58,709 bases of DNA from a virus: the IMG/VR virus record IMGVR_UViG_3300027759_000102, positions 1 through 58,709 of that record; one strand, 5' to 3'. Under the pieces are notes generated by a model. The model worked only from the letters and a program-made list of their open reading frames with translations. It was not told where the DNA came from and searched no databases. The stretch's first letter is position 1, and every line of letters starts with the position of its first letter. This document shows positions 6,330-42,000 of this stretch, piece after piece. The position numbers and the translations under genes were made by a program.

Positions 6330-7056
6330 TTGCCACCTTAAGTTCTTGTGGTTTAAACATCGGATAAAGAACATCGTTACCAAAATCACCTTCGTATTCT
6401 TGAACGCCCATGTGACCTAGTTTGATCGTTGGGTCAATCCATACTTCGTAACCTTCTTCTCTTGCACGGTCGCAGAACAGGAAGTCTTCACCCATGTAAC
6501 CTTCTGGCGTTGACTTGAAATCAAAGAACGAAAACAACGTCTTACCTGCACGTTGATCTTTGTATTCCCACTCAGGATGCTTGTCACGTAGGGTTTCAAA
6601 CACCTCACGCTTAATCATCATAAATGCTGTTGCTACACGCTTTGCCCTAACCAATCCCATAGCGTTCATGGTTAGCGAACCACTATCTTCATCTAACGTG
6701 GCAATGTATGTTTTATCAGCTTTACGAACTGTTGGGACACCGGCAGCAATGCCTTTGTCCGTAGTCCAAGCCAACAACCTAAATACATCTTCTGCCGCAA
6801 AATTAATATCTGCATCTATAAACAACAAGTCTGTACACTTTGACTCAAGAAAATCCTGTGCTAATAAATTCCTAGCGCGAGATACTACTGAACACCCACA
6901 TATGCTACCAATCTGAATTTCTACACCATGCTGCAATGCTTGCTGACCAAAATGCACTAACGAAATAGCCATCTTTATTGATACTTTAAAGTCGTAAGCA
7001 GGTAGAGCTATAAATATTCTACGTCCATGCAGATCAAAGGCTTTTTCTTGATTCAT
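6322..7056 (-). CDS. Glycosyltransferase-like protein
   Basis: This 244-residue protein has a GT-A type pattern. FIALPAYDF opens the fold, CSVVSRARNLLAQDFL is the helix before the metal site, and LLFIDADINF carries the DAD metal/nucleotide-sugar motif (81-83). MGEDFLFCDRAREEG (188-202) resembles the ED acceptor-site motif, and LGHMG sits at 213-217. It should transfer a sugar from a nucleotide donor, perhaps to a virion protein. It lies inside the structural operon, unlike host-modifying glycosyltransferases. Substrate unknown. The Shine-Dalgarno is weak (GGATAACAC before ATG). Confidence 0.75.
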   Translation of the reverse strand: MNQEKAFDLHGRRIFIALPAYDFKVSIKMAISLVHFGQQALQHGVEIQIGSICGCSVVSRARNLLAQDFLESKCTDLLFIDADINFAAEDVFRLLAWTTDKGIAAGVPTVRKADKTYIATLDEDSGSLTMNAMGLVRAKRVATAFMMIKREVFETLRDKHPEWEYKDQRAGKTLFSFFDFKSTPEGYMGEDFLFCDRAREEGYEVWIDPTIKLGHMGVQEYEGDFGNDVLYPMFKPQELKVANG

Positions 7057-18124: not shown

Positions 18125-18139
18125 GTAGTGCAGGACAAG

Positions 18140-18169
18140 CCCTGAGCCGAAAGGTTCAGGGTTTTTTTT
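18140..18169 (+). terminator. Strong intrinsic terminator, plus strand
   Basis: CCCTGAGCC (18140-18148), GAAA tetraloop, GGTTCAGGG (18153-18161): nine pairs including one G-T, followed by eight T. It ends the isolated gene's transcript and insulates the candidate origin region from it. Confidence 0.9.
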
Positions 18170-18300
18170 CGCCTCGTGTCACCAGTTCTTCGGGGGTCTG
18201 AGGGTCGAAAGGGGGCGCGTGAGGGCGCGAGTGAGTTTGCCCATCGGTTGGCGAGTTGGCGAGTTGGCGGGTGGGCGTTGGTGGGTGAGTGGCGCGCGTT
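18170..18300. other. GC-rich region with short tandem repeats
   Basis: No gene is supported. The plus strand is G-rich (GGGGGTCTGAGGG, GGGGGCGCGTGAGGGCGCG). It contains a short tandem run TTGGCGAG-TTGGCGAG-TTGGCGGG near 18246-18270. Possible open frames are short and lack ribosome sites. Confidence 0.5.
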
Positions 18301-18306
18301 GGGCAA

Positions 18307-18319
18307 CGGACATTGTCCG
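18307..18319. repeat. CGGAC palindrome, copy 2
   Basis: CGGACATTGTCCG, preceded by A and followed by C, the only copy whose next outward pair is mismatched (A opposite C). It lies in the gene-free region. Confidence 0.8.
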
Positions 18320-18334
18320 CTGGAGATTAATCAG

Positions 18335-18351
18335 GTGGCGCGGCGCGCCAC
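18335..18351. repeat. GC-rich dyad containing GGCGCGCC
   Basis: GTGGCGCG-G-CGCGCCAC has eight-base perfect arms around one base. It ends four bases before a copy of the AAAAACTGGCGAT repeat. It has no U-run, so a protein-binding site or structural element is likelier than a terminator. Confidence 0.6.
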
Positions 18352-18354
18352 AGC

Positions 18355-18367
18355 AAAAACTGGCGAT
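18355..18367 (+). repeat. 13-mer AAAAACTGGCGAT, copy A (non-coding)
   Basis: First of four exact copies in 5.2 kb. It lies between the GC dyad at 18335 and palindrome copy 3. Confidence 0.75.
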
Positions 18368-18381
18368 ATAGGCGTTGGCAA

Positions 18382-18394
18382 CGGACAATGTCCG
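18382..18394. repeat. CGGAC palindrome, copy 3
   Basis: CGGACAATGTCCG inside AACGGACAATGTCCGTC; the next outward pair is A-T. Confidence 0.8.
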
Positions 18395-18423
18395 TCAGGA
18401 ATATTTAATAGGTGATTTAGTAT

Positions 18424-18853
18424 GTGTCAAATATTGCACAGACCTTGTTCCAATGTTCCGGAAAAAAAGGGCGTTGGAACACGTTTTGGAACAAGCTTTT
18501 CAGGGGCATCAATTTTTATAAGTCATTGATATATATATATAATATAATAATAGTAATAGTAATAGTAATGTCAATGTTCCAATGTTCCGTTTTTTTTATT
18601 AAAATATGGCTGACCTGAAAAATACGTGTCAAATATTGAACATGTATAGAATTGAACACAAGTTCGGAGCGACCTCGGCTGCCGTGTATTTGCGTTTCAC
18701 CACGGAACATTGGAACATCGCCACCTAACGTGTTGATTGCATTACCCTTTTTCATACCCGCGTCACACTTTACATTAGGAACATTTGGAACACCCTTGAT
18801 TCCATTACATTTCCCGCCCTTCTATCCTAGTGTTCAAAACTTGACATAGGAAC
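18424..18853. other. Candidate replication origin: AT-rich tract with GGAAC repeats
   Basis: No gene fits. The stretch holds an AT tract (18528-18570: ATATATAT then repeated AATAGT) surrounded by repeated GGAAC half-sites. GTTCCAATGTTCC occurs at 18447-18459 and 18576-18588, its complement GGAACATTGGAAC at 18704-18716, GGAACATTTGGAAC at 18778-18791, two GGAAC spaced 12 at 18476-18492, and one at 18849-18853. A 13-base direct repeat GTGTCAAATATTG is at 18424-18436 and 18626-18638. Iterons beside an AT-rich tract are the usual layout of an initiator-dependent origin. That function is inferred. Confidence 0.5.
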
Positions 18854-18869
18854 ATATCTATGGTATACT
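18841..18869 (+). promoter_or_regulatory. Strong early promoter, plus strand
   Basis: TTGACA (18841-18846), 17 bases, TATACT (18864-18869). The -35 is consensus. A GGAAC half-site (18849-18853) lies in the spacer, so a protein binding those repeats would touch RNA polymerase. It should drive the whole early block through a leader of about 670 bases. Confidence 0.8.
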
Positions 18870-18917
18870 CGTATTGTAAGTGAAAAGTTTGACAAAGTTA
18901 GGTAGCGGCTGCGGTAG

Positions 18918-18930
18918 CGGACATTGTCCG
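18918..18930. repeat. CGGAC palindrome, copy 4
   Basis: CGGACATTGTCCG within AGCGGACATTGTCCGTT; the next outward pair is G opposite T, which can pair only as RNA. It lies about 45 bases into the early leader. Confidence 0.8.
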
Positions 18931-18969
18931 TTGAGGTCACCGAGGTTATGCGCCAGACACTATCACTCC

Positions 18970-18981
18970 CGTTCTTTAACA
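18970..18981 (+). promoter_or_regulatory. boxA-like antitermination site
   Basis: CGTTCTTTAACA differs at one base from the boxA form CGCTCTTTAACA used in nut and rrn antitermination. It lies in the early leader, 26 bases before palindrome copy 5, the order boxA then hairpin as in nut sites. Confidence 0.5.
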
Positions 18982-19007
18982 GTTTAGAGTAAGACCACAG
19001 AGCCTAG

Positions 19008-19020
19008 CGGACATTGTCCG
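19008..19020. repeat. CGGAC palindrome, copy 5
   Basis: CGGACATTGTCCG within AGCGGACATTGTCCGTT (next pair G opposite T). It follows the boxA-like element. Confidence 0.8.
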
Positions 19021-19195
19021 TTGGGGCGTATTCGTTTAGCCGTGTGCTACGTAGTGTATGTCGTGGTGCTTGAACCCGTTGAGTCTACCTTGTCAGTTGC
19101 GCAGGTCGCGTAGTTTGCCCTTGCTGTCAGCAAAGCAAGTAGATGTAGGATTCATCGGACAACCCAGATCGACAACATCGTAGCACGCTAACATA

Positions 19196-19208
19196 AAAAA
19201 CTGGCGAT
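19196..19208 (+). repeat. 13-mer AAAAACTGGCGAT, copy B (leader)
   Basis: Exact copy in the early leader. With one more A before and GC after, it shares 16 bases (AAAAAACTGGCGATGC) with copy C. Confidence 0.75.
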
Positions 19209-19412
19209 GCACTCTGTGCTAGGGGCAATACTTAATGTGTGTAGAACCGATAGACAGCGGGGCTACTCAAGCGGCTAGGTGTAAGACTATACAACACGTG
19301 GAAGATTCTATACGTGTAGCCTAGATCGCTCGTATTGCCGATGGTGAGCCTAACACCCAGTGCGGACTGCGACAAGAACATGCAGACGCTCACAACTAAT
19401 ACTGAAAGCCAG

Positions 19413-19425
19413 CGGACAATGTCCG
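19413..19425. repeat. CGGAC palindrome, copy 6
   Basis: CGGACAATGTCCG within AGCGGACAATGTCCGCT, a 17-base dyad with outer G-C and A-T pairs. It is 118 bases before the first early start codon. Confidence 0.8.
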
Positions 19426-19542
19426 CTGCGACCAACCAACCGCGCCTTGGTAGACCAACATCAGGGCGCACCCCATAGCGCATTGCACCCAGTAGTGCGT
19501 TATGCGGTGTAAACGCACCATAACTAATCACGGAGAGATAAC

Positions 19543-19719
19543 ATGAAAGCAACACAAGCAATAAACCGTAGCACCCCGATGGACTTGCTCATGATGCAAC
19601 AACCGTTTAACCCTGATAGAAAGCATGAGCAAATGTATTCACGAGAACAGATCGAGGCGTGGCTTGTCTCGATTGGTAAAACCCGCAACGGACAACGTCC
19701 GTCAACCATTAACAAGTAA
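19543..19719 (+). CDS. Small early protein, first gene of the early block
   Basis: An ATG at 19543 with GGAGAG seven bases upstream encodes 58 residues: KATQAINRSTPMDLLMMQQPF, NPDRKHEQMYSREQIEAWLV, SIGKTRNGQRPSTINK. The YSREQIEAWLVSIG part looks helical. The last residues NGQRPS are encoded by palindrome copy 7. It ends 14 bases before the next start. No family is known to me; being first behind a strong promoter, it may act on the host or on regulation. Confidence 0.65.
   Translation: MKATQAINRSTPMDLLMMQQPFNPDRKHEQMYSREQIEAWLVSIGKTRNGQRPSTINK
19689..19701. repeat. CGGAC palindrome, copy 7 (inside a gene)
   Basis: CGGACAACGTCCG, centre AAC, outer pair A-T. It lies within the coding end of the 58-residue gene, so the arms are kept although they are translated. 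Confidence 0.8.
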
Positions 19720-19733
19720 ACAGGAGAGATACC

Positions 19734-21431
19734 ATGCCAGCATCTACGTTCCCATTATCTTCATACTCCAAAGAGCGTTACAACCTGATACGTCAAAAGC
19801 GTATAGTCGTGGGCTACAATTTCCACAACAACCACCCATCAGTTGATCGCCCTGATATATATCAGCGGCTTGCCCCTAAACCTCGGTCATGCTCATTCCT
19901 GCGACATGACCTAATTGGTTTGTATAACGATGGTTGTAGCCAATCTAAAGCCTTTCGCATTCGAGCCTTCCTGAAGAAGTTTGGTCAGCGGCTTGCCAAG
20001 AGTGGGGTCATGCGTAACAAGCCAATCGTTCCTGCCGCTGTAGTAGATTGGATACTTGCCAATCGCACCTTCATTGAAGACAGCCCAATATTTTTGACGA
20101 GTAACATGGTGGCATCTACTTTGTTGGGGCGGGATGTGACCGCACTATGGGATAGGGACAGTGAGAAGCTAGGTGATGGGCGTTGGAGACCTGTGCCGTG
20201 GCATCACTATGGGTTCTTCAAGGATTCAAGGTATTACCTATTGCACAGTCTACACATGAGCACAACCAAAGGTGAAGAAGGGCTACTCGCATTCGCAGAG
20301 TCACTAGACAAGATGAGGATCGAGCGTTACACCATCATCAAGCCCGGTCGCTACCTTGCTAGGTTCTTCCCAGAGTTGGGCGAGAGTGAGATTCGCACGT
20401 GGACAGAGCGGGTCGCGGCATCAATACGCCCTGCCGAGTTGAAGTTCATCGAGTCTGATGACAAGGATGGTTGGGTCAGTGTGTATCAGGATGGTCCTGA
20501 TAGTTGCATGTCTGGCAGTGATGCGGAGTGTGTGCATGTATACGCCCACAAGAAATCCGTGTTACGCCTAGCCTACTTGGTGCAAGGTGAAGACATCAAA
20601 GGCAGGGCTATCGTGCGTGAGGATAAGAAAGAATATATACGTTGTTACCCTAACACGTCTAGCACTGATTCCACTGCGTGGCACAACACCATGCGTGAGG
20701 CTATCGAGGCGGCAGGTTATACGCATGGTAACTTGGAGGGCGTGTTGCTTGACATGCACAAGGCAGATGACGGGGAATACACCATGCCCTACCTTGACTC
20801 GGGCAGTGGCGGTCCACAGAGCGTTGACATGGACGGTGAGTATTTCCGTGTGACCAAGCATGGTGAGCATGATGCAACCAATACAAACGGTCGGCTTTCC
20901 TTGCGGGACATGATGTGTTGTGACTCCTGTGGTGATGACTTTGACGCAGAAGATATGAACTACATCGACCACCATGAGCATCATGTCTGTAACTATTGCT
21001 ACAGTGAGCATTACCGCGAGGCGATTGGTAGACGTGGTCGGACCGTCATGACTTTAGCTGATGACTGCGTCTACTGTTCATCGGATGATAACCACTACGT
21101 CACGGAATACGCATCGGACAATGAGGTCTATGAGTGTGCCGAGTCAGGGGATTACTTCAAGTTGGATGATATGGTCGCCACGCCTGATGGATGGGTTGCG
21201 GATGCTCACGCTACCAAGTTGACTATCAAGACCGAGCGACACGGTGAAGAGTTTGAGTATGCAGGGAATAGTGATGTAGTCACCACGCATTCGGGTGATG
21301 TTGTGTATGACAAGGATGTAATAACGTATGTGGTAGATGATATTAACTATATATGTCATGAGGATGTAGATGAGATGGAGTTTCGGGCACAACTGTTATG
21401 TGAATCCTCACTTAACGAACAAGCAGCTTAA
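19734..21431 (+). CDS. Large early Zn-finger protein of unknown function
   Basis: This 565-residue protein has GGAGAG before its ATG. The N-terminal 250 residues are basic and contain no family I can name. A segment near 255-310 reads YQDGPDSCMSGSDAECVHVYA, SVLRLAYLVQGEDIKGRAIV and KEYIRCYPN. Near 395-425 lies a Cys/His zinc knuckle (CCDSCGDDF, then HVCNYCYSEHY), followed by CVYCSS near 446. The tail is acidic. It looks multi-domain: a possible substrate-binding part plus RING/zinc-ribbon-like fingers. I recall similar proteins beside AAA+/VWA gene sets in phages. Palindrome copy 8 starts at its stop codon. Confidence 0.7.
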   Translation: MPASTFPLSSYSKERYNLIRQKRIVVGYNFHNNHPSVDRPDIYQRLAPKPRSCSFLRHDLIGLYNDGCSQSKAFRIRAFLKKFGQRLAKSGVMRNKPIVPAAVVDWILANRTFIEDSPIFLTSNMVASTLLGRDVTALWDRDSEKLGDGRWRPVPWHHYGFFKDSRYYLLHSLHMSTTKGEEGLLAFAESLDKMRIERYTIIKPGRYLARFFPELGESEIRTWTERVAASIRPAELKFIESDDKDGWVSVYQDGPDSCMSGSDAECVHVYAHKKSVLRLAYLVQGEDIKGRAIVREDKKEYIRCYPNTSSTDSTAWHNTMREAIEAAGYTHGNLEGVLLDMHKADDGEYTMPYLDSGSGGPQSVDMDGEYFRVTKHGEHDATNTNGRLSLRDMMCCDSCGDDFDAEDMNYIDHHEHHVCNYCYSEHYREAIGRRGRTVMTLADDCVYCSSDDNHYVTEYASDNEVYECAESGDYFKLDDMVATPDGWVADAHATKLTIKTERHGEEFEYAGNSDVVTTHSGDVVYDKDVITYVVDDINYICHEDVDEMEFRAQLLCESSLNEQAA

Positions 21432-21444
21432 CGGACAATGTCCG
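21432..21444. repeat. CGGAC palindrome, copy 8
   Basis: CGGACAATGTCCG within AACGGACAATGTCCGTT, a perfect 17-base dyad. It overlaps the stop of the 565-residue gene and ends just before the ribosome site of the peptidase gene. Confidence 0.8.
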
Positions 21445-21458
21445 TTGAAAGGATAAGT

Positions 21459-22517
21459 ATGGAACGATTATTAGAGATGTTGAGTTACACAAGGGCGCAT
21501 CAATCCGAGGGTGAACGATTGTTTGTTGATAAGTTTATCAACCCGTATAACCCCAAGGTATACAAGACAGGCAATGAAGTATTAGCCTATGTGGTAACGG
21601 TAGGTGGTAAGAAACGCCCGCCTGTGCTGTGGAGTAGCCACGTGGATACTGTGCATGGTAAGGACGACCCTGTCATGCAGACCGTTGTATATGATGAGAG
21701 TGGTGGGTTTGCTTACAAGGATGACGGTCGACCGCTAGGTGCTGATGATGGCGCGGGTGTATGGCTTATGCTCGAGATGATAGACGCTAAGGTAGCGGGC
21801 ACGTATATCTTTCATCGTGGTGAAGAGCGTGGGGGTATTGGCTCAAGCGGTATGGCGTTACACCACAAGGCGTGGCTATCTCAATTCAAGTGGGCTATTG
21901 CGTTCGACCGTAGGGGGGACAGTGACATTATTACCGAGCAGTCACCCGGTGTGTGCGCGTCAGATGACTTTGCCAAAAAACTGGCGATGCTTATCAATGA
22001 GGGCACAGGCTTGACCTACGCGGGTAGTCCAAACGGCATATTCACAGACACGGCAAACTATCGTAGACTAATCCCTGAATGCACTAACCTATCGGTGGGC
22101 TATGACAATGAGCATACGGGAAGTGAGACGTTGGACACGTGGCATCTGATGAATCTACGCAATGCAATGATACGGTTCACAGCGGATATGACTAACTCGC
22201 TACCTGCAACGCGTGACCATACTGCCCCAGACCCAGTGCCTTTGTATGGCAAGTATGGCGCGTGGGATACGTGGAACTACGGGATGCCAGCAACCAAGAA
22301 GAAGAAAGCAGCGCGCGCAGTGAATGTTGCAGACAACATAATGGATTGGTCAGCCGATGACGTTGCGCAGATGCGGTTCAATGACTTAGTGAAGTTAGTG
22401 CGGGAGGCACACCCAGAAGATGTAGCAGGGCTAATCGTAAGACTAGCCGAGGATGTGCAGTATGTAAGTGAGCAATACTATGAAGCGACAGGCGAGGAGT
22501 CTAGTAGTTATACCTAG
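21459..22517 (+). CDS. M20/M28-type zinc metallopeptidase
   Basis: This 352-residue protein has the metal-ligand pattern of co-catalytic zinc exopeptidases. SHVDTVHG (H61, D63) opens the site, GADDGAG (D96/D97) bridges, RGEERGGIGS gives the catalytic Glu pair (E122/E123), FDRRGDSD follows (D150), and DNEHTGSE supplies the last His (H219). M20/M28/M42 enzymes remove amino acids from peptides or hydrolyse amide bonds. The ATG at 21459 (AAAGGA seven bases before) is preferred over the ATG at 21438, which lies inside palindrome copy 8. The C-terminal 80 residues (KKKKAARAV, then an acidic helical end) are extra. The target is unknown. Confidence 0.82.
   Translation: MERLLEMLSYTRAHQSEGERLFVDKFINPYNPKVYKTGNEVLAYVVTVGGKKRPPVLWSSHVDTVHGKDDPVMQTVVYDESGGFAYKDDGRPLGADDGAGVWLMLEMIDAKVAGTYIFHRGEERGGIGSSGMALHHKAWLSQFKWAIAFDRRGDSDIITEQSPGVCASDDFAKKLAMLINEGTGLTYAGSPNGIFTDTANYRRLIPECTNLSVGYDNEHTGSETLDTWHLMNLRNAMIRFTADMTNSLPATRDHTAPDPVPLYGKYGAWDTWNYGMPATKKKKAARAVNVADNIMDWSADDVAQMRFNDLVKLVREAHPEDVAGLIVRLAEDVQYVSEQYYEATGEESSSYT
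21976..21988 (+). repeat. 13-mer AAAAACTGGCGAT, copy C (inside peptidase gene)
   Basis: Here the bases encode KKLAM in the peptidase, a different frame from copy D. Confidence 0.75.
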
Positions 22518-22530
22518 CGGACATTGTCCG
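22518..22530. repeat. CGGAC palindrome, copy 9
   Basis: CGGACATTGTCCG within AGCGGACATTGTCCGTT. It directly follows the peptidase stop (TAG) and precedes the next gene's AGGAG. It is the last copy I see. Confidence 0.8.
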
Positions 22531-22549
22531 TTGACCAACAGGAGATAAG

Positions 22550-22714
22550 ATGAGAGACCATATAAAAAATCGTAAGGCATTAATTGCAGTAATCATGAAC
22601 GAAGGGAGGTATAAATTTTATAGAAACGTAGAGATGGTGTTTTTCTGTGCGGTAGTGATACCTGCTACCTATTTGTTTTTAATATTATGCTTATCAATAG
22701 GAGATATAAAATGA
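22550..22714 (+). CDS. Small membrane protein
   Basis: An ATG at 22550 with CAGGAGATAAG in front encodes 54 residues. A basic N terminus (RDHIKNRKALIAVIMNEG) is followed by one hydrophobic helix (about 29-50, MVFFCAVVIPATYLFLILCL). It overlaps the next gene as ATGA. A single-pass inner-membrane protein is likely; function unknown. Confidence 0.6.
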   Translation: MRDHIKNRKALIAVIMNEGRYKFYRNVEMVFFCAVVIPATYLFLILCLSIGDIK

Positions 22715-22899
22715 TAGACGGAATGACGTTCGTATTAGTAGTAGCGGCAGTGGGTTTCGTAGCATTCACAAGTGGATGGTATTTGGGGCGGCAGAACGCA
22801 GCTTTGTTGTTTGCATCCTTTATGAATGACCTAGACACTGAATTCAACGGCAAGATTTTTGAATGGGTTATGCGTAGACGTGAGGAGATGAAGAAATGA
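22711..22899 (+). CDS. Small membrane-anchored protein
   Basis: The ATG at 22711 has TAGGAG eight bases upstream and gives 62 residues: one N-terminal hydrophobic helix (about 5-25, MTFVLVVAAVGFVAFTSGWYL) and a charged tail ending RRREEMKK. An upstream in-frame ATG would overlap the previous gene and lacks a ribosome site. ATGA overlaps on both sides suggest coupled translation with its neighbours. Unknown function. Confidence 0.6.
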   Translation: MIDGMTFVLVVAAVGFVAFTSGWYLGRQNAALLFASFMNDLDTEFNGKIFEWVMRRREEMKK

Positions 22900-23300
22900 A
22901 AAAGATGATACGACTGATGGATTTGGTTGAGAGCCAATTAAGGCACAAGAAGAATTTTAAGGACATGCTGAATGTTTTGGGATACGATCTTGGGAATCTA
23001 TTTGCAAGCGTTAAGGACGACCAACCTTTCGAGGTCTTGTTGCATACCTTTATTAGCAGTGTTTACAAAGGCAAGCAGGCGTGGGAGGAGTACGAAGTTA
23101 AGGAGACAAAGTCTGTGATTGACGAGTGGTATGACAAGTGTAGCCCTGCTAGGGAAGACCTACCTATGGATGCGCTAACGCATATAGCTGAAGCTAATGA
23201 CTTGGTGCTGTCAGACAACCTTATAGGGTTTACCCAAGCATTGATAGCCGAGATGAACATGAACAAGGAGATACAGAATGAAAGAGATGCTCTATATTAA
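22896..23300 (+). CDS. Hypothetical early protein
   Basis: This 134-residue helical protein reads IRLMDLVESQLRHKKNFKDML, VLLHTFISSVYKGKQAWEEYE, then EANDLVLSDNLIGFTQALIAE. It starts in an ATGA overlap. No signal peptide or metal motif. It overlaps the following gene by 23 bases. I recognise no family. Confidence 0.6.
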   Translation: MKKMIRLMDLVESQLRHKKNFKDMLNVLGYDLGNLFASVKDDQPFEVLLHTFISSVYKGKQAWEEYEVKETKSVIDEWYDKCSPAREDLPMDALTHIAEANDLVLSDNLIGFTQALIAEMNMNKEIQNERDALY

Positions 23301-23703
23301 TAAGGTAAGTGCCGAGCAGGTGGGTGGGGGTAACGAGGTTGACTTCGTGCATCTACCCAACGGGCAAGTGCTTGGCATTAACGATGAGTGTGTGGGCTTG
23401 TATACGTCTATGCAGGCTTTTTGGGATAATGAAACGCCCTTATGGAGTCAGTGGTTAAAAAGAAAGGAGATTAAAGGAATGAAAAACTGGCGATTACAAA
23501 GCACAGACGCGCCAACATGGGAAGATGCAATGGATGCGCTTGCAGATGAGCGGGTGTGGTTGCGGGAAACTTTATACAACCTCATCGGGTTGTGGGAAAT
23601 GGAAGCACCCATGACAGACATAGAAAATTCTATACATAAAGCAAAGCTCATGCTAGAGTATACATCCACTAAAGAGGAGAGCGATGAATTTAAGAGAGGA
23701 TGA
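23278..23703 (+). CDS. Hypothetical early protein, possibly two fused parts
   Basis: This 141-residue protein starts after AAGGAG. The first 67 residues (YINKVSAEQVGGGNEVDFVHL, NGQVLGINDECVGLY) look beta-rich. The rest is helical and begins at an internal AAAGGAATG that could be a second start (MKNWRLQSTDAPTWEDAMDA), which contains 13-mer copy D. It could therefore yield two products. Unknown function; overlaps the next gene by 20 bases. Confidence 0.6.
   Translation: MKEMLYINKVSAEQVGGGNEVDFVHLPNGQVLGINDECVGLYTSMQAFWDNETPLWSQWLKRKEIKGMKNWRLQSTDAPTWEDAMDALADERVWLRETLYNLIGLWEMEAPMTDIENSIHKAKLMLEYTSTKEESDEFKRG
23482..23494 (+). repeat. 13-mer AAAAACTGGCGAT, copy D (inside a gene)
   Basis: Encodes KNWR right after an internal ATG. 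The reading frame differs from copy C, so the bases, not the protein, are shared. Confidence 0.75.
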
Positions 23704-24049
23704 GATACGCGCCGTATTGCGGTTTATGAGCGCGGAGTTAGAAGTTATTGAGAACTACGATTTATTAAAAGCAGGGGGGCAGAGATTCATTGCCATCATC
23801 AGCCACATTGACGGCACGAAAGTCTCATACCCCAGTGACAATCGTATTGATGCGGTTACAGACGCATGGGATGTATTCAAAAGCTACATGAAGACAGATG
23901 ACAAAGGAGACCCAGAATGGCTTAACAAAACATTGCTTGCAGATTTAGAAGTGCAGTTAAAACGAAATCAAATCACGGAGAACAGAGATGTCAAAAAACT
24001 TAAGCGAAGTAAATCTAACACCGCAGGTATCCCTCGCAGAAGCTGCTGA
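23684..24049 (+). CDS. Hypothetical early protein
   Basis: This 121-residue protein reads REDEIRAVLRFMSAELEVIENY, then QRFIAIISHIDGTKVSYP, then WDVFKSYMKTDDKGDPEWLN. Its last 62 bases overlap the start of the AAA+ gene in another frame, so the basic tail (KKLKRSKSN) may be an overlap by-product. The ATG has GAGAG near it. No family is recognised. Confidence 0.6.
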   Translation: MNLREDEIRAVLRFMSAELEVIENYDLLKAGGQRFIAIISHIDGTKVSYPSDNRIDAVTDAWDVFKSYMKTDDKGDPEWLNKTLLADLEVQLKRNQITENRDVKKLKRSKSNTAGIPRRSC

Positions 24050-25070
24050 TCTTGTGCAGCATGTTGGGAATGATGTTACGTTTGTGTTTGAGGGTGAGGT
24101 AGGTATTGGCAAGTCCTATATGCTGTATGAGTTGGGCAAGCGAATGCCTGAATATCAATGCGTGTATGCAGAGATGCCAACCTTTGACGTAGGTGATATG
24201 AATGGTGTGCCGTTCACTGAAACAATCAACGGTATCAAGGTAACCCGCTTTGCACCTAATTCTATGTTGCAGATTTATCAAGATCGCCCTGTGCTATTCA
24301 TGGCAGACGAGGTTGGTAAGACATCGCGCCAAGTGCAGAATACCTTATTGCGTTTGTTTCACGAGAAGAAGATTGGTGAGTATGCGCTACCCCCGAACAG
24401 CATAGTCTTTGGCACTACCAATCTGGTGGGTGAGGGGCTAGGCGATTACCTGCAAGCACATGCGTATAACCGCGTATCGGTAGTGCCCATAGCCAAGCCC
24501 GATGCAAACGAAGTCTATGCGTTTGGTTCAAAGGATGGGTGGCATCCGATTATCTTGGCGTGGATGAAACGATTCCCGCATTGCCTTGCGTCATACCGTG
24601 AAGGTGAGGGCAACCCGTATATCCATTATCCACACAAGACTGACAAGGCGTTCGTCACAGGTCGTAGCTTGAACAAGGCGAGTCATATCATGTGGAAGCG
24701 GCATCTCATCAGCCCACGTGCATTAGAAGTAGCACTCATTGGTTGTGTAGGTGCGGCAGCAGCATCGGGCATCTTATCGTTCACACAGGTTGATTCTACG
24801 CTGGCAACGTGGGACTCTATCGTGCAGACACCCAATACCGCTACTGTCCCAGACGCATCGAACTTCGCGGCTAACTATATCACGGTGTTCAGTGCTATCC
24901 ATCTTGTGAAGCGCGATACATTCTCAGCATGGATGACGTATCTCAAGCGACTCCCCAAGGAGTATCAGGGTGTGTTTGCTAGGAATGTTCAGGAGGCACC
25001 CGCAGGGGTTATTGCTGTGGAGAACCGAGCGTTCATCGCATGGGCTACTGAAAATCACTGGATGGCTTAA
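23988..25070 (+). CDS. MoxR-type AAA+ ATPase
   Basis: This 360-residue ATPase has Walker A GEVGIGKS (36-43), Walker B VLFMADEVGK (102-111), sensor 1 VFGTTN (140-145) and an Arg in AYNRVSVV (162) as likely finger. Between Walker A and B lie PTFDVGDMNGVPF and FAPNSML, typical of MoxR/CobS-like ATPases that work with VWA proteins. Such pairs remodel proteins or insert metals. GGAG precedes the ATG. The VWA gene starts two bases after its stop and the DUF3150-like gene follows, a conserved set. The client is unknown. Confidence 0.85.
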   Translation: MSKNLSEVNLTPQVSLAEAADLVQHVGNDVTFVFEGEVGIGKSYMLYELGKRMPEYQCVYAEMPTFDVGDMNGVPFTETINGIKVTRFAPNSMLQIYQDRPVLFMADEVGKTSRQVQNTLLRLFHEKKIGEYALPPNSIVFGTTNLVGEGLGDYLQAHAYNRVSVVPIAKPDANEVYAFGSKDGWHPIILAWMKRFPHCLASYREGEGNPYIHYPHKTDKAFVTGRSLNKASHIMWKRHLISPRALEVALIGCVGAAAASGILSFTQVDSTLATWDSIVQTPNTATVPDASNFAANYITVFSAIHLVKRDTFSAWMTYLKRLPKEYQGVFARNVQEAPAGVIAVENRAFIAWATENHWMA

Positions 25071-25072
25071 TC

Positions 25073-26245
25073 ATGTATGCCAATTCGTTAACTCCCGAAC
25101 AGTGGGTGGGTAAGAACACGCTCGATGTAATTATGCACCCGCAGTATCGTTCACTTGGCGCGGTAGTCCTGATGGGCAAGACCTCTATCGGGGATTGCCC
25201 TACCGCATACACCGATGGGCTTAACGTAGTGTATGGCGAGAACTTTATCTCTAAGCTGCTTGACACGGAGATGCGGTTCTTAATTCTACACGAGAACATG
25301 CACAAGGCATTACGCCACATGGTGACTTGGCTATGGATGTTTAAGGAAGATGCAGAGTTAGCCAACCTTGCCTGTGACCTAGTGATTAACCTGATGTTGG
25401 TTACATCTGACCCTAACCAAACCTTTATACAGATGCCGAAGGGCGGTGCGCTTGATGCTAAGTATGAGGGGTTAGATGCGGGTGAGGTGTATCGGTTGCT
25501 GAAGCAGGATAAAGAGTCAGGTTCAGGCAGTGCTAAGTATGCTGGGTTTGATTCGCATGAGTGGGGGTCAGCAGTGGCTCGTAGTGATGCGGAGGTTGCA
25601 GAGATCAGTAAGTCTATCGAAGATGCACTGCAAAGCACATCCATGCTAGCAGGTAGTATGAGTGCATTGATGAGCAGGGCTATCACTGAGTCTGTCCTAC
25701 CAACCGTTCGTTGGGAAGATCAACTGCGGGACTTCGTTACTTCTATATGTAGCGGGCGACAACTATCCACATGGCGCAGACCCAACCGTAGGTATATAGA
25801 CAGCGGTATCTACATGCCATCTTCGTATAGCGAAACAGTCGGGCGTATGTGTATTGCTGTTGATACGTCAGGTTCTATCTCAGGTGCACCGCTTAACCTG
25901 ATGCTAGCAGAGGTCAGTAGTCTTGCTATAGTTCTTCAACCAGAAGTAGTTGATTTGTTGTATTGGGATAGCCGAGTCGCCGCACATGAGCAGTATGGTG
26001 TGGGGCAGTATGAGCGTTTGATTGACTCGACTAAACCCAAAGGGGGTGGGGGGACTACACCCTCGTGTGTAACAGCATACTTAGCAGACAACAACATCAA
26101 GCCTGAGTGTGTGATTATGTTGACTGATGGGTATGTAGGAAGTGATTGGGGTGGGATGTGGACCTGCCCTGTCTTGTGGTGCATCGTGAATAACAAACGC
26201 GCGTCTGCCCCCACAGGTAAAACCATCCACATTAAAACTTACTAG
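25073..26245 (+). CDS. VWA protein with metallopeptidase-like N-terminal domain (DUF2201-type)
   Basis: This 390-residue protein has two parts. The N-terminal part has HENMH (73-77), an HExxH zinc site, followed by ANLACDLVIN (about 98-107), the D..IN pattern that supplies the third ligand in DUF2201_N proteins. The C-terminal VWA part has a complete MIDAS: DTSGS (264-268), GGGTTP (326-331) and TDGY (351-354). It is the natural partner of the preceding MoxR ATPase. The intact HExxH suggests real peptidase activity, though the family is mostly uncharacterised. Two bases separate it from the ATPase gene. Confidence 0.85.
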   Translation: MYANSLTPEQWVGKNTLDVIMHPQYRSLGAVVLMGKTSIGDCPTAYTDGLNVVYGENFISKLLDTEMRFLILHENMHKALRHMVTWLWMFKEDAELANLACDLVINLMLVTSDPNQTFIQMPKGGALDAKYEGLDAGEVYRLLKQDKESGSGSAKYAGFDSHEWGSAVARSDAEVAEISKSIEDALQSTSMLAGSMSALMSRAITESVLPTVRWEDQLRDFVTSICSGRQLSTWRRPNRRYIDSGIYMPSSYSETVGRMCIAVDTSGSISGAPLNLMLAEVSSLAIVLQPEVVDLLYWDSRVAAHEQYGVGQYERLIDSTKPKGGGGTTPSCVTAYLADNNIKPECVIMLTDGYVGSDWGGMWTCPVLWCIVNNKRASAPTGKTIHIKTY

Positions 26246-26255
26246 GAGATTCAAA

Positions 26256-27107
26256 ATGAGTATAGCTGATAAAGGTCTATTGGTTAACATCACGTTGTCT
26301 GTATGGTCTGGTCGTAAGCTAGACAAGCAGGTGTCCGAAGAAGTAGACGTAGCCAAGAGCACCCGTGCGCGGGCGGGTAATTACAACAAGAACTTATTTG
26401 CAGGTGTAGATGAGTTAGATGCAGTGCGCCGCATCTCGGGTGAGATAAGAAACTGGCACCACACGCAAACGCTACCGTGGTCAGATGGTGGTGATCGCTT
26501 GTTGACCATGCGTAACTTCAAGGACTATAAAGATGGGTTGCTACAACGTCAACAAGATTTTGCTGCGGCAGTTGCCGCGTTCTGTGATCGCTACCCACAC
26601 TTGATCTCGGCTCAAGCGTTTACGATGGGGCGGTTGTTTAACCGTGATGAATACCCCGATGCGAAAGATATTGCAGCGAAGTTTGATATGCAATATACTT
26701 TTTCACCGGTGGCTGATGTTGCTGATTGGCGGGTAACTGCTGATGACGACATCCGGAATGAATTAGATAGTCAATACAGGAAGGTCTACGACGATAGGCT
26801 AACAAGTGTAACCAAAGAATTGTGGGATAGGTTGCATACCTGCTTGCAACATATGAACGAACGGTTAACCGTTCCACAAGGCGGAGAGAAGAAGATATTC
26901 AGGGATAGCTTGCTCGACAACGCGGTTGAGTTATGTGGGCTATTAACCAAACTGAATATCACCAACGATCCGAAGTTAGAAGAAGCACGTAAAGCATTAG
27001 AGTCTACTGTATGCAACGTGGATATCAAGGACTTACGGAAAGATGTTGGTGCGCGTATTGAAATCACCACGCAAGTCAATGACATCCTTAGTCGATTTGA
27101 ATTTTAA
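26256..27107 (+). CDS. DUF3150-like third component of the AAA+/VWA set
   Basis: This 283-residue protein reads LVNITLSVWSGRKLDKQVSEE, KNLFAGVDELDAVRRISGEIR, WSDGGDRLLTMRNFKDYKDG and a long helical C-terminal half ending TQVNDILSRFEF. This is the pattern of the DUF3150 family, which I know from phages and plasmids next to MoxR and VWA genes. No catalytic motif is seen; it is likely an adaptor or substrate for the ATPase. AGGAG precedes the ATG 11 bases after the VWA stop. Confidence 0.75.
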   Translation: MSIADKGLLVNITLSVWSGRKLDKQVSEEVDVAKSTRARAGNYNKNLFAGVDELDAVRRISGEIRNWHHTQTLPWSDGGDRLLTMRNFKDYKDGLLQRQQDFAAAVAAFCDRYPHLISAQAFTMGRLFNRDEYPDAKDIAAKFDMQYTFSPVADVADWRVTADDDIRNELDSQYRKVYDDRLTSVTKELWDRLHTCLQHMNERLTVPQGGEKKIFRDSLLDNAVELCGLLTKLNITNDPKLEEARKALESTVCNVDIKDLRKDVGARIEITTQVNDILSRFEF

Positions 27108-27116
27108 GGAGATGTA

Positions 27117-27413
27117 ATGACACCAGAAGGTAAGGTAAAGAAACAAGTCACTGACCTACTAAAGAAAGTTAACGCCTATTACTTCTTCCCCGCAACAGGG
27201 GGGTATGGGCGTTCTGGTGTTCCCGATATAGTTGCATGTTACCGCGGTCGCTTTATTGCTATTGAATGTAAGGCGGGTAAGGGTGAACCCACTGCGCTAC
27301 AAACCCGAGAGTTGTTTAGGGTGCGAGGTGAAGGGGGGTTTGCTTTGGTCATCCGTGAGAGCACCGTCTTTAAAGTTCAAGAACTATTAGAGTCTATTAG
27401 GGAGTCGCACTAA
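27117..27413 (+). CDS. VRR-NUC domain nuclease
   Basis: This 98-residue protein is a stand-alone VRR-NUC domain of the PD-(D/E)xK fold. GVPDIVA (34-40) gives the active Asp, FIAIECKAG (46-54) gives E50 and K52, and TALQ (59-62) completes the site. Such nucleases act on branched or flap DNA. It follows the DUF3150-like gene after AAGGAG and overlaps the next start as TAATG. Probable role: resolving replication intermediates or degrading host DNA. Confidence 0.82.
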   Translation: MTPEGKVKKQVTDLLKKVNAYYFFPATGGYGRSGVPDIVACYRGRFIAIECKAGKGEPTALQTRELFRVRGEGGFALVIRESTVFKVQELLESIRESH

Positions 27414-29600: not shown

Positions 29601-29788
29601 CAGTCCACCTCGACCTAGATACTAAGAAGTATTTAATACACACCTTCAAGCGGAAGGATGTTAGTACGTTCTTCATTAGTCAGTTACCCGCGAACCGAGT
29701 ACCCCAACGGGGGGCTTGCCTGCTGCAAGACTATTGGCATAGTGCGGCACAACCGTTTGATAGAACAACACTAGAGAGTGAGCGATGA
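29597..29788 (+). CDS. Small hypothetical protein before the polymerase
   Basis: 63 residues: TVHLDLDTKKYLIHTFKRKDVS, TFFISQLPANRVPQRGACLLQ, DYWHSAAQPFDRTTLESER. It overlaps the previous gene (ATGA) and the polymerase start (ATGA), so it is probably translated as part of the replication operon. No family recognised. Confidence 0.55.
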   Translation: MTVHLDLDTKKYLIHTFKRKDVSTFFISQLPANRVPQRGACLLQDYWHSAAQPFDRTTLESER

Positions 29789-31626
29789 TAATTGTATGTG
29801 ACTTTGAAACCTACTATAGCAAAACATACTCGCTATCCAAACTAACCACAGAAGAGTATATACGGGGTGATGAGTACGAAACTATCGGTGTCTCGGTTAA
29901 AGTAGACGATGCACCTGCTCAGTGGTTCTCGGGTAGCCACCAAGAAACAAAAAACTGGTTATGGCAATTTGAGTGGAGCAAAGCTATGGTGGTAGCGCAC
30001 AACGCGATGTTTGACGCGGCTATCTTGAATTGGCGGTACGACATACGCCCTTACATCATTGCGGATACCTTGAGCATGGCGCGGGCTATTCATGGCATAG
30101 AAGTTGGGGGCAGCCTAGCCAAGCTAGCAGAACGGTATGAGATCGGGGTCAAGGGTAACGAGGTGATACACGCCCTAGACAAACACCGCGCGGATTTTAC
30201 TGAGCAAGAGTTAGCTAAGTATGGTGAGTATTGTGTGAACGATACGGAGTTAACCTATAAGCTATTTAACATCCTAGTAGAAGGCTACCCCAAGAAGGAA
30301 CTAAAGTTGATTGACTTAACCATACGCATGTTCAGTGAGCCTGTGTTGGAGTTGGACGAGATGCTACTACAGAACCACATGGTCAATATCAAAGCACGTA
30401 AGGAAGAGTTGCTGAGTAAGATAGCAGGTGACCCTGAGACTGCTAAGAAGAACATCATGAGTAACGTGAAGTTTGCTGAGTTGCTTAGGGAGTATGGTGT
30501 AGATGCCCCTATGAAGATAAGCCCTACTACCGGCAAGCAAGCCTACGCGTTTGCTAAGACCGATGAGGAACTTAAAGCGTTGCTTGAGCACCCAGACCCT
30601 AACGTGCAAGCATTGGTGTCAGCTAGGTTGGGAGTTAAGAGCACACTAGAGGAGACTAGGACTCAACGGTTTTTAGCGATTGCACAGCGAGGTAGCCTAC
30701 CCATACCATTGAAGTATTATGCAGCACACACAGGACGGTGGGGCGGTGCAGACAAGATCAACCTACAGAACTTGCCAAGCCGTGGTGCGGATGCAGGACA
30801 GCTAAAGAAGGCAATCAAAGCCCCCAAGGGTTACGTCATCATTGATGCAGATTCCGCACAGATTGAAGCTCGTGTGCTGGCTTGGATGGCAGGGGTTGCC
30901 CCATTAGTCGAAGCGTTCAGGAAGGGTGAGGATGTATACAAACTCATGGCCGCCGCGATATACGCCAAAGACCCCGTGGACATTACACCCGCAAAGCGTT
31001 TCATAGGTAAGGCAGCCCTGCTTGGATGTGGGTATGGTATGGGGTATAAAAAGTTTCATAAGACTCTGTTAGCGTCGGGGACTTCTATAAGCGAAAGTGC
31101 TGCTAGAACCATCGTGAATACTTATCGCGCGGTTAACTCTGGTGTGGTTGAGTTGTGGGCGCAGGGGGATAGATGTTTAGCGGCAATGCTAGACAGGCAG
31201 AGCACAGACTACGGGAAAGAGGGGGTTGTTCTGGTGGGGCAGTGGTGGTGGAAAGGGTTTGTCACCCCAAATAAGATTCCGTTTCGATACTATGAGTTGC
31301 GTAGGGTACCGGGCAAGAACGTAGGCGAGATGGGGTTTGCGTATACATCACGCACTGGCGCTGTAAGTATATGGGGTGGGAAGTTAACCGAGAATATCAT
31401 TCAACACTTAGCTAGGTGTATCATTGGGGAACAGATGTTGAGGATAGCTAAGAAGTATAGAGTGGTGTTGACTGTGCATGATGCGATTGCGTGTATAGCA
31501 CTTGAGGCTGAAGCGGATGAGGCGCGGGCGTATGTAGAGGAGTGTATGCGGTGGACACCCGCATGGGCTGATGGGTTACCTCTGAACTGCGAGTCGGGCG
31601 TGGGTAAAACTTACGGAGAATGCTAA
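29785..31626 (+). CDS. Family A DNA polymerase with 3'-5' exonuclease
   Basis: This 613-residue replicative polymerase carries both domains of the T7-like type. Exonuclease motifs: CDFETYY (D6, E8), AHNAMFD (71-77) and YCVNDTELT (about 147-156). Polymerase motifs: A, IIDADSAQIEARVLAW (about 350); B, RFIGKAALLGCGYGMGY (about 405); C, LTVHDAIA (about 560). HTGRWGG lies before motif A. All catalytic Asp residues are present. It is followed by nuclease, helicase and SSB-like genes, the rest of the replisome. Thioredoxin-binding insertions are not evident. Confidence 0.92.
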   Translation: MIIVCDFETYYSKTYSLSKLTTEEYIRGDEYETIGVSVKVDDAPAQWFSGSHQETKNWLWQFEWSKAMVVAHNAMFDAAILNWRYDIRPYIIADTLSMARAIHGIEVGGSLAKLAERYEIGVKGNEVIHALDKHRADFTEQELAKYGEYCVNDTELTYKLFNILVEGYPKKELKLIDLTIRMFSEPVLELDEMLLQNHMVNIKARKEELLSKIAGDPETAKKNIMSNVKFAELLREYGVDAPMKISPTTGKQAYAFAKTDEELKALLEHPDPNVQALVSARLGVKSTLEETRTQRFLAIAQRGSLPIPLKYYAAHTGRWGGADKINLQNLPSRGADAGQLKKAIKAPKGYVIIDADSAQIEARVLAWMAGVAPLVEAFRKGEDVYKLMAAAIYAKDPVDITPAKRFIGKAALLGCGYGMGYKKFHKTLLASGTSISESAARTIVNTYRAVNSGVVELWAQGDRCLAAMLDRQSTDYGKEGVVLVGQWWWKGFVTPNKIPFRYYELRRVPGKNVGEMGFAYTSRTGAVSIWGGKLTENIIQHLARCIIGEQMLRIAKKYRVVLTVHDAIACIALEAEADEARAYVEECMRWTPAWADGLPLNCESGVGKTYGEC

Positions 31627-32282
31627 TGGTTAAATGGTCATATAGTAGTATGTCGCTGTTTCAACAATGCCCTAAGAAGTTCTACCATATAAAGGTAGCT
31701 AAGACTATTGTTGAGCCAACCTCGTGGCAAATGATCTACGGGTTAGAAGCACATAAAGTTGCTGAGGATTACGTACGGGATGACGTACCAATACCCGAGA
31801 AGTTTGCGTTTATGAAGGGCGCTTTGGATACGGTGAAAAAGTATAAGGGAGTCATCTACTGCGAACACAAGATGGGTGTAACGGACACCCAAGAAGCCTG
31901 TGACTTCAACGCAGACAATGTGTGGTGGCGTGGTATTGCTGACCTATTAGTTGTTCAAGGCGACCGAGCCAAGATCATAGACTACAAGACAGGACAGAAT
32001 AAGTATGCGGATACAAAGCAGCTTGAGTTGTTAGCATTAGCCGCGTTTAAACATTTCCCCGAACTTAAAGTTATCAACGCGGGGTTGTTGTTTGTAGTGC
32101 ACCCTGCATTCATTAAGCAACGCTACGAACGAGACGAGATAGAACACCGATGGGGTAAGTGGAAAGAGAAAGCGGAAGAGTTGGGAACCGCGTATACTAC
32201 AAACGTATGGAACCCCAAACAAAATTTCACTTGCCGTAGTTGGTGCCCTGTAGTAAATTGTGCGCACAACGGAAAACGATAG
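31626..32282 (+). CDS. Cas4/RecB-like PD-(D/E)xK nuclease with likely Fe-S cluster
   Basis: The ATG at 31626 overlaps the polymerase stop (TAATG) and gives 218 residues. Motifs: C15 in FQQCPKKF, GLEAHKVAE (H43), GIADLLV (D106), IIDYKTG (D119, K121), QLELLAL (Q132) and a C-terminal CRSWCPVVNC (C203, C207, C212). This is the RecB-family set with four Cys placed as in AddB/Cas4 4Fe-4S nucleases. It likely processes DNA ends in replication or recombination. No cas genes are near, so it is not a CRISPR component. Confidence 0.82.
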   Translation: MVKWSYSSMSLFQQCPKKFYHIKVAKTIVEPTSWQMIYGLEAHKVAEDYVRDDVPIPEKFAFMKGALDTVKKYKGVIYCEHKMGVTDTQEACDFNADNVWWRGIADLLVVQGDRAKIIDYKTGQNKYADTKQLELLALAAFKHFPELKVINAGLLFVVHPAFIKQRYERDEIEHRWGKWKEKAEELGTAYTTNVWNPKQNFTCRSWCPVVNCAHNGKR

Positions 32283-39012: not shown

Positions 39013-39040
39013 CCCCCAACGTGTGTTGGGGGTTTTTTTT
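39013..39040 (+). terminator. Strong intrinsic terminator closing the early block
   Basis: CCCCCAAC (39013-39020), GTGT loop, GTTGGGGG (39025-39032), then eight T (39033-39040). The minus strand has no comparable U-run, so it acts on plus-strand transcripts. It abuts the end of the convergent 2259-residue gene. Confidence 0.92.
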
Positions 39041-42000
39041 ACCTATACATCCGAGTAAGGTTAGTATCAAACGTAGGTGTCAGTTCCGCAAAGGCGCGTA
39101 ACGTAGGCAAGCGCAAACTCTTTAGGTATTTAGTCTGTTCATCTTCAAGCTTGTCTAACTTCTCCCGCATTTGTTCCGCGGTTAACGTGGTGTCAGACAA
39201 TATGCGTTTGCGTATTCCTCTATATACCCCAAGGTCTGCATCAACCCGCGTCTGTAACTGCCGCAACGCAAAAGCCTTTTTATTCTGCGGGTCGTTGATA
39301 TACTCCAACGCATCTTGGTTTCTACCAGCCGAAATCAAATCACGGTAAGCTCGTGCAGTTGTATCTATGCGGTCACGTAACTCATAGTAGTCTTCCAAAG
39401 ATGCTTTGTCCTTAGAGCTATACGTAAAGGTTTTGAGACCGGGGTAGTCCTCTACGCGCATACTTGGAGTTACTTTACCATCAGCGGCATGGAACAACCC
39501 GTTGGTCATTGAGATAACAAACCCCCCTAGCTGTCCTGTTAACCCACGTAGAAGGTAGTCAACCTTCATAGGAGATGCACCCATTGCAGCGCCTAGCTGT
39601 ATAGCAACCTCAGAAGTATTTTCACCAACTTGTTGGTTCAGCGGTAAGTATTCTTTGCTCTTTCCGACGATAGGGTTGCTACTATAGAATGAACGATTCA
39701 ATACAAGTTCTACACCAACCTTAGCACCTACACCGCCGGGGATAAAGTTCTCAAGGCTACCTAAGTCAGTAAACCCTTTCCACATAGCTCGACCCGCACG
39801 AGCACCTGCATCTTCAGACTCTAACCCCTCTGCAAGCATGTAGCGCGTAATCTGTTCAGGCACTACCTTGAATAAGAACCCAATGCCGTCGCCCGGAACA
39901 GGGATGCGAATGTTTGTCTCTGGGATAATCAGGCTGCGGTTACGGGTGCTGTCATCAAGTTTTTTGTAGTCATCATCATCACCTACCATCATGGTGTAAA
40001 GCGAAGTGAGTATGGCTAACTGCATACCACGATAGATAATAGCTAACCGTGTTTGGTTACGAGTGCCTTCACTGAGCCGTGCAGAACCAAGCACCAACCC
40101 TTTGTAAAGGTTGTTGAGGTCATTCATATACACGCCCATAAACGGCACGGTCTGACGCAGGAAGCTAGCGTATTCACTAGACCCTTGAGTATCGAAGTTA
40201 ATGATCTCACGAGCGCGGCGTATAGCTAATACCTCATTGCCTGTCTCTTTCATGGTGAGTTCGTATAGCGCAGTCCTAGTTGCGGCATCAGAAGCGTTTT
40301 GTATAGCCTCAAACGTATCCCACAGCTTTCCAAACATCCCACGCTTCTCAAGACCAAGCCTACGTTGCGCAGTTCGTCCTGCCTCACCGGGGATAACATC
40401 TCCACCACGACCTACTACACCAAATTGTTTAAGCCGTTCACCTGTTGTTGTGGTGCTAAATAGTTCTTTCATAAAGTTAGTCAATACGCGGGGTATTACT
40501 GCGTAAGGGTTGCGTAGCCCACCTGCAACAAAGGCGCGCATAGCGTCTTGGGGTAGCTGCCCTAACGCAAAGATTGGGAACGACGTTACACCTCTACGCA
40601 CCAAGTTAGCAGGGGCGGCAAAGAACTCAGTCATTGCACCGTGCGCGGTTTTAAACCCTCTGAACGCAGGGACAAACGCGGGGTCAGTAAACTCGTAGTA
40701 GTGTGGTATGCCATTGCGCATAACCTGCACAGTATTAGCCCGATTAACCCCTGCCGCATCTGGTGCACCCACACGCTTGGCTATGGGTCTACCGGCAATA
40801 CCAAACCGCTGTGCGTAGTCAACCATATACGCTGAGGTGTCGTTGCTAACTGACTTGGCTACCATCCAGTTACTTAAGTGCGCCATGTTGTCTAAGATGT
40901 TATTGATCTGCTTTGATTCAACACTGCCGCCCTTTAGGTCTTTGAGCATACTCTTGTTCATCAAACCTTTGGCAAACGCCCGAGGAGAGGGGATGTTGAT
41001 GCTTCCATCGTCATTCTCTGACCACCGATTCCACGGCACGTAGTCTGAGTATTCTTTCCACTCCGCGGCTTGCTCGGATGTGATTACCCCTGCGGCAACC
41101 AAACCATCTACGCCGTGATTCTTAAACTTGGTATATAGCTGCGCGGCAGCGGCAATCTCAGGAATGTCATTATAGACTTCTAACCCAAATTTTATTTGAT
41201 CGGCCGTTAAGGTAGGTTTAACTTCACCCTTAGCAATTGCAGATGCCAACCCTTGTTCCCGTTTAGCACTAACCGCCATATTAAAAAAGTAATTAGCGGC
41301 ATTAAAGTCTTTAATTTTTTTGTATTTTCCAACTGTGCTTTGTAGTTTTTTAATAATGTCTACATAGTTGGCATCCGTTTTGTATGCTTCCCACATACCA
41401 CGAGAGTTCTTACGAAACCCGCCTAGTTCTAAGGTAGCAAGCGCAATACCGTGTGTTTTTGAAGCGGCTTGCATACGGTCAATACCACTAGCCGCACCCG
41501 CCGCATCGAGCGAGTTGTTACCACCTAGCGTATCAACAAACAATTCTTCCCACGGTGCGTTTTTATCTGCCATCTGTTTACGCACAGACTCTACTACCCC
41601 CGCGGTACGGGCAAAACGGTCGGGGCGTGTTACGGTGTCGATAGCACCTTGTATGATGCCTTTGGCTGGTGGTGGCCCACTAAATACTCTACTAGCTTCA
41701 GCATCAGCCGCATCAAGCGCAGGGCTAGCTAAACTAAACCGCATCACGGCTTCTTTAGAAATCTCACGTACTGCTCCCGGTTTGTTTTTAGATGACGCAC
41801 CAGTTTCTCTAACATAACTAAACTTGTTAATCTTATCAAAGATTCCTTGGTTGATTGCCATTTCTCGAACAGACCTAAACGCTGTACGTACGATTTGGTC
41901 ACCCACCAGACCACGTTTAAACTTAAAGTATCCGTTCTCTTGGAAGATTACGTCTTTGTATTTCTTTATTACCTCTGGACTAATAACCCCAGAAGTGCCT

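Follow-up and report, generated by a model that had tools for sequence, protein, structure and literature searches.

A conserved ATPase-VWA-DUF3150 gene trio of phages and conjugative elements and its possible role in DNA recombination or replication

What would a virus do with an AAA+ ATPase, a VWA protein that carries a metallopeptidase motif and a DUF3150-like protein encoded next to its replication genes, and do the two genes upstream of them belong to the same system? The question is raised by a single virus record of 58,709 bases, analyzed here in full and referred to as the window. A sequence-only reading had combined five of its genes into one proteolytic or remodelling machine, expressed early and possibly directed against host complexes or defences. 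All five open reading frames were confirmed on the plus strand; they encode a Zn-finger protein with two CxxC pairs (19734-21431; PHROG 6980), a zinc exopeptidase (21438-22517; PHROG 4191), a 360-aa MoxR-type AAA+ ATPase (23988-25070; PHROG 1297), a VWA protein with an N-terminal putative metallopeptidase domain (25073-26245; PHROG 1314) and a 283-aa helical DUF3150-like protein (26256-27107), the last three of which are referred to below as the trio. The ORF check bore out these positions as given earlier for the trio genes, together with the gaps of 2 bases between the ATPase and VWA genes and 10 bases between the VWA and DUF3150-like genes. The early-operon setting also held, in that the studied genes sit inside a strand block of replication genes. 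This plus-strand block (19.7-38.8 kb) continues with a VRR/Hjc-like nuclease directly after the trio (27117-27413), a family-A DNA polymerase (29785-31626), an exonuclease of PHROG 69 (31620-32282), a helicase and a primase-like protein. The terminase, portal, capsid and virion protein genes flank the block on either side and are encoded on the minus strand. The window terminase is closest (45-49%) to those of phage 023Pt_psg01, Pelagibacter phages HTVC027P and HTVC023P, and phage DSL-LC04, and searches of those records found neither the VWA gene nor DUF3150.

The assignment of the ATPase to the MoxR type rests on its match to PHROG 1297 (1e-34), on midasin as the best solved-structure match of its profile (E 2e-11) and on the partner gene, because the Pfam AAA_5 match (15.4 bits) falls under the curated cut-off of 22. 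An adjoining VWA-domain gene, which is a criterion for MoxR-type ATPases, is present in the window as well as in the viral loci described below. The Walker A residues (G36, G39, G41, K42 and S43), the Walker B pair D107-E108, N145 and the arginines R162 and R226 are the same in all or nearly all of 26 homologues, so that the ATPase residues are intact, as had been claimed.

In the VWA protein, Pfam recognized the putative metallopeptidase domain DUF2201_N (3e-23) and the VWA-like domain DUF2201 (2e-13), with PF13203 and PF09967 both over the cut-off at 83 and 51 bits. This contradicts the label “HNH endonuclease” that PHROG 1314 attaches to the family. The HENMH motif, a candidate zinc site of the HExxH type (residues 73-77, positions 25289-25303 on the plus strand), retains H73, E74 and H77 in all 27 homologues and in 10 wider ones, including those of N4-like phages. 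The MIDAS residues D264, S266, S268, T328 and D352 are invariant in the same 27 and 10 proteins. The earlier claim that the protein keeps both its peptidase-site and its MIDAS residues thus stands. Judged by sequence alone, N98, D102 and N106, candidates for a third zinc ligand, are likewise invariant in the 27 homologues. The predicted structure (pLDDT 81) matches VWA folds, including the MDN1-MIDAS domain and, weakly, the NorQD complex. The HExxH domain might carry out active proteolysis, with the balance leaning somewhat against it.

For the third protein, the window sequence itself had no match in Pfam, PF11348 (DUF3150) included. Nevertheless, 4 of the 7 members of its alignment match PF11348, with a best value of 3e-6, and one homologue exceeds the curated cut-off of that family. 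In hhalign comparisons, the match of the phage family to canonical DUF3150 covers the 145 N-terminal residues (probability 91.5, E 9e-7), and its match to the plasmid relatives covers the full length (probability 100). The structure predicted for the window protein (pLDDT 82) consists mainly of long helices; its good structural matches are confined to predicted viral proteins, the top one of which is named DUF3150, and a comparison with solved structures found no relative. On the basis of the profile matches, the homologue matches and the predicted-structure matches, the window protein appears to be a relative of DUF3150 at the superfamily level. Genes of this kind, in the viral loci and in the canonical plasmid loci alike, are found beside those for a MoxR-type ATPase and a VWA protein.

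The extent of this association was evaluated by scanning the viral contigs of IMG/VR. Scans with the VWA protein alone returned nothing and those with the ATPase alone only two loci, whereas the alignment of the DUF3150-like protein detected more than 570 relatives, from which 80 loci were kept. Co-conservation in other phages had been named earlier as the point on which the grouping could fail; the trio proved to be co-conserved across many phages, with both the ATPase and the VWA genes present on the same strand in all 37 DUF3150-like loci that have enough flanking sequence (5 kb or more before the DUF3150-like gene and 2 kb or more after it). This co-occurrence is far above chance. All 68 complete loci carry the trio on one strand, 65 in the order ATPase-VWA-DUF3150 and 3 in the order ATPase-DUF3150-VWA, and the spacing between the VWA and DUF3150 genes reaches about 2.3 kb in some loci. 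In the 12 loci that lack a partner, the DUF3150 gene lies within about 2.8 kb of the upstream end of the contig. The conservation does not reflect a single clone, because the 83 DUF3150-like proteins make up 32 clusters at 90% identity. The neighborhood is conserved, too: a family-A DNA polymerase is encoded on the same strand, 3' of the trio, in each of the 58 loci where one was found, and the VRR/Hjc-like nuclease accompanies the trio in 75 of 80. A mirror-tree test without a control was set aside because shared phage ancestry supplies most of its signal. In 17 genomes, the distances between the trio proteins after removal of the PolA signal showed partial correlations, calculated with no significance test, of 0.68, 0.58 and 0.84; the matching correlations with the neighboring nuclease were weaker (0.29 and 0.26).

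The two upstream genes show a different distribution. The peptidase had been described as “M20-like”; it is indeed a zinc exopeptidase, but Pfam places it in family M28 (PF04389, 9.9e-6; 25.8 bits against a cut-off of 21.3), and the metal-ligand positions of that family (HxD, GAD, EE and H) are invariant in 7 homologues. The Zn-finger protein matched 257 phage records and the peptidase 364, mainly from phages of Klebsiella, with the two genes adjacent wherever the loci were read; the pair is common in Klebsiella phages of the genus Drulisvirus. The peptidase was found in only 4 of the 29 trio loci that have 8.5 kb of upstream sequence, and the VWA gene is absent across the whole records of one Drulisvirus phage and of Pasto, both of which carry the Zn-finger/peptidase pair. 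These counts argue against placing the Zn-finger protein and the peptidase in the same machine as the trio. The candidate five-gene machine was accordingly rejected, the pair being separable from the trio; the Zn-finger and M28 genes are a separate pair, and the five genes make up two modules.

The region around this pair also contains palindromes. Eight copies with the core CGGACA-N-TGTCCG, one of them a variant, are located at 18,307-22,530, six of them in the 1.6-kb gap that precedes the Zn-finger gene; over the whole window, 16 both-strand matches were counted versus 0.5 expected. The copy CGGACAATGTCCG (21432-21444) lies immediately 3' of the Zn-finger stop codon and overlaps the M28 start codon, and the copy CGGACATTGTCCG (22518-22530) lies immediately 3' of the M28 stop codon. 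In some 20 related loci, the early region has different palindrome families of its own, and 57 of 140 sites lie near an ORF stop versus 14% of random positions. The central base is not oriented consistently, which does not favor a role as strand-specific hairpin promoters. Comparable 17-bp dyad repeats, whose function is unknown, have been described in Cluster O mycobacteriophages (PMC4351075).

The ATPase-VWA-DUF3150 unit is not phage-specific. A relative from a metagenome-assembled contig matched 42 plasmid records, and all 7 of the plasmids inspected, from Burkholderiales and alphaproteobacteria, encode the trio on a single strand in the order ATPase, DUF3150-like protein, VWA protein; one has a few kilobases between the ATPase and DUF3150 genes, and one has the ATPase gene split over two frames. 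VirB-type secretion genes come after the trio in 4 of the 7. Canonical DUF3150 was detected in 1168 plasmid records, 978 of them predicted to be conjugative, and in all six distinct loci that were read its gene neighbors encode an AAA+ protein of the CbbQ type, a VWA protein of the CobT type or both. Genes for RecT and YqaJ lie upstream of it in two of these loci (L135 and L139). The IncC plasmid pNDM10505 has the gene order AAA+, unknown, ssb, bet, exo, DUF3150, VWA, and the Proteus plasmid pTAFA has the order RecT, exo, unknown, IS1 transposase, MoxR, DUF3150, VWA, traF. A MoxR/VWA gene set was found in the pCAR1 study to be conserved among IncH and IncT plasmids and SXT/R391 elements (PMC2642839). 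A result that speaks against the reading preferred below comes from SXT, where removing bet, exo, s067, s068 or s070 reduced transfer by no more than 10-fold (PMC2791158); some of these genes may be orthologous to trio genes.

Two further functions were considered. A chaperone for virion assembly or proteolytic processing has been proposed in print for a related gene pair of jumbo phages, by analogy with p618/p892 of the Acidianus two-tailed virus (PMC7824862). For the present trio such a role seems highly improbable: plasmids carry the trio and make no virions, the gene order places it upstream of PolA and on the strand opposite the structural genes, and phages with the closest terminase genes are missing the VWA gene. 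Metal insertion or cofactor maturation, performed on a metalloenzyme of the host or of the element in the manner of CobS-CobT or NorQ-NorD, would fit the CbbQ-type and CobT-type neighbors of canonical DUF3150 and the weak structural match between the VWA model and the NorQD complex. However, no obvious metalloenzyme client adjoins the trio in the phages and plasmids that were read, and this analogy is very unlikely to hold.

The gene neighborhoods in phages and conjugative elements instead favor a client in recombination or replication: the trio is found next to polymerase, exonuclease and nuclease genes, and canonical DUF3150 next to RecT/Bet-exonuclease genes. Judging from their co-conservation, the three trio proteins would very probably form a physical complex. 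Our preferred reading, to which we assign close to an even chance, is that this complex is a three-part AAA+ remodelling machine that serves the DNA recombination or replication of the element itself. In such a machine, a ring of the MoxR-type ATPase would power conformational work, and the VWA protein, with its MIDAS and HExxH domain, would act as an adaptor that recruits the substrate, as in midasin, NorQ-NorD and RavA-ViaA. The helical DUF3150-like protein would serve as the third subunit, coupling the ATPase-VWA pair or directing it to its target. The likeliest substrate would be a protein-DNA complex of the element's recombination/replication apparatus, or a host factor acting on it, which the machine would disassemble or mature early after entry. 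That the substrate is a component of DNA transactions falls somewhat short of even, and the neighborhood is weak evidence for it, because early phage operons place replication and takeover genes side by side. The same position in the early/replication strand block would also suit the function suggested earlier, in which the trio, soon after entry, dismantles or cleaves a defence or a complex of the host. Phages and conjugative plasmids, which share the trio, meet the same defences, and the HExxH residues are invariant. Nonetheless, this appears unlikely: several loci lie inside recombination operons, the pair is among the core genes of N4-like phages and is not variable cargo (PMC7650795), and PADLOC, a library of defence rather than anti-defence systems, had no match in the window. 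The window received no informative annotation from PADLOC, NCBIfam or Rfam. On the whole, the neighborhoods, those on plasmids included, make a role in DNA recombination, replication and transfer likelier than action on host complexes or defences. If remodelling of this kind does take place, phages and conjugative elements would share an unrecognised protein-remodelling step; linking the genes as one machine makes cultured models available in N4, the cyanophages and laboratory ICE derivatives.

The ATPase-VWA pair itself is already known, from N4 gp24/gp25 and from jumbo phages; no description of DUF3150 as its recurrent third partner was found, and a literature search, with subscription papers mostly outside its scope, found no paper containing “DUF3150.” The MoxR-vWA ternary conflict systems resemble the trio in combining a MoxR ATPase and a vWA partner with a third conserved component, and peptidases occur there as well (PMC7159879). 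A system of that type on mobile elements could sense competing elements and act against them. This is quite improbable for the trio, which in phages sits among replication genes; a Pfam scan of the window genes found no VMAP, iSTAND, FtsH or beta-propeller component, the third components that distinguish the conflict systems, which are mainly found in multicellular bacteria and are not core genes of mobile elements (PMC7159879). We tentatively suggest that DUF3150 marks a distinct ternary MoxR-VWA class of mobile elements (lytic phages, conjugative plasmids and ICEs), which would remodel recombination/replication complexes of incoming DNA; the form kept by N4-like phages would lack DUF3150, and the VWA partner used by phages and some plasmids would include a protease domain.

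Among conjugative elements, the IncC, IncP-7, IncH and IncT plasmids and the SXT/R391 ICEs carry genes for AAA+ and VWA proteins next to bet/exo or RecT, accompanied by DUF3150 in the loci that were read. In the plasmid/ICE loci scanned, the VWA protein is of the CobT type, without the DUF2201 metallopeptidase domain of the window protein, and the likeness of canonical DUF3150 to the phage type is limited to the N-terminal part. The Planktothrix/Synechococcus phages Pag-Yong1, Pra-JY27 and MinM2 encode MoxR, DUF3150 and VWA inside 4.5 kb (as read in MinM2) and differ from the window in the order ATPase-DUF3150-VWA, at 20-30% identity. Jumbo phages of group 2.2 have the same domain pair as the window, with the metallopeptidase fused N-terminal to the vWA domain; the accessible part of that description does not mention DUF3150 and proposes the virion-assembly role discussed above (PMC7824862). 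In Schitoviridae, N4 gp24 (AAA+ ATPase) and gp25 (vWFA) are homologous to the window pair, at about 20-30% identity, and share its gene order and its position ahead of the DNA polymerase gene, with no DUF3150 found in N4, XC38, PG11 or 1.026.O. The DUF3150 profile, which matches its own loci and was run with no positive control, detected none in these four phages or in CRP-7; CRP-7 gp16 and the genes neighboring the N4-like pair were thereby dropped as DUF3150 candidates. Because the N4-like phages and CRP-7 retain the ATPase and VWA genes with no detectable DUF3150, the third part appears not always to be needed. As an ATPase/metallopeptidase-VWA pair, gp24/gp25 belong to the core genes throughout the phage family and have no known function (PMC7650795, PMC2784036), and linking them with DUF3150 yields a function that can be tested.

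The start of the early operon is the sole location in the window of the palindrome CGGACA-N-TGTCCG, which is represented by 8 nearly identical copies (18307-18319, 18382-18394, 18918-18930, 19008-19020, 19413-19425, 19689-19701, 21432-21444, and 22518-22530). These copies correspond to 16 matches on both strands, versus ∼0.5 expected by chance across the window. The 1.6-kb stretch without clear genes that precedes the Zn-finger protein gene (18125-19733) also contains a hairpin resembling a terminator at 18137 and an 11/12 promoter match at 18841-18869, with the overall promoter counts being at chance level.

Related phages carry their own palindrome families, distinct from that of the window, at early gene junctions (viral loci L007, L009, L010, L022, L030, L054, L059, L062, L063, L070, L080, L081, L087, L089, L091, L094, L096, L100, and L105). 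These palindromes consist of invariable arms with a 1- to 4-base spacer and are frequently found immediately 3′ of stop codons.

The HExxH-VWA family of the trio is referred to as “HNH endonuclease” in PHROG 1314 and in many phage records, while Pfam assigns it to the DUF2201 metallopeptidase-VWA proteins. In the Paraburkholderia acidisoli plasmid (locus L134), the trio ATPase gene (5592-6841) is unannotated and spread over two overlapping frames, probably owing to a frameshift.

The 2,259-residue protein of the window's virion region (39039-45818) matched a single family, PHROG 18222, whose function is unknown; a search of this protein for the RNA polymerase D.DG motif found none.

The Zn-finger protein (19734-21431, plus strand) contains an invariant SCM motif (S257-C258-M259), located in a conserved core that is shared with proteins of Drulisvirus and might represent a PcfJ-like core.
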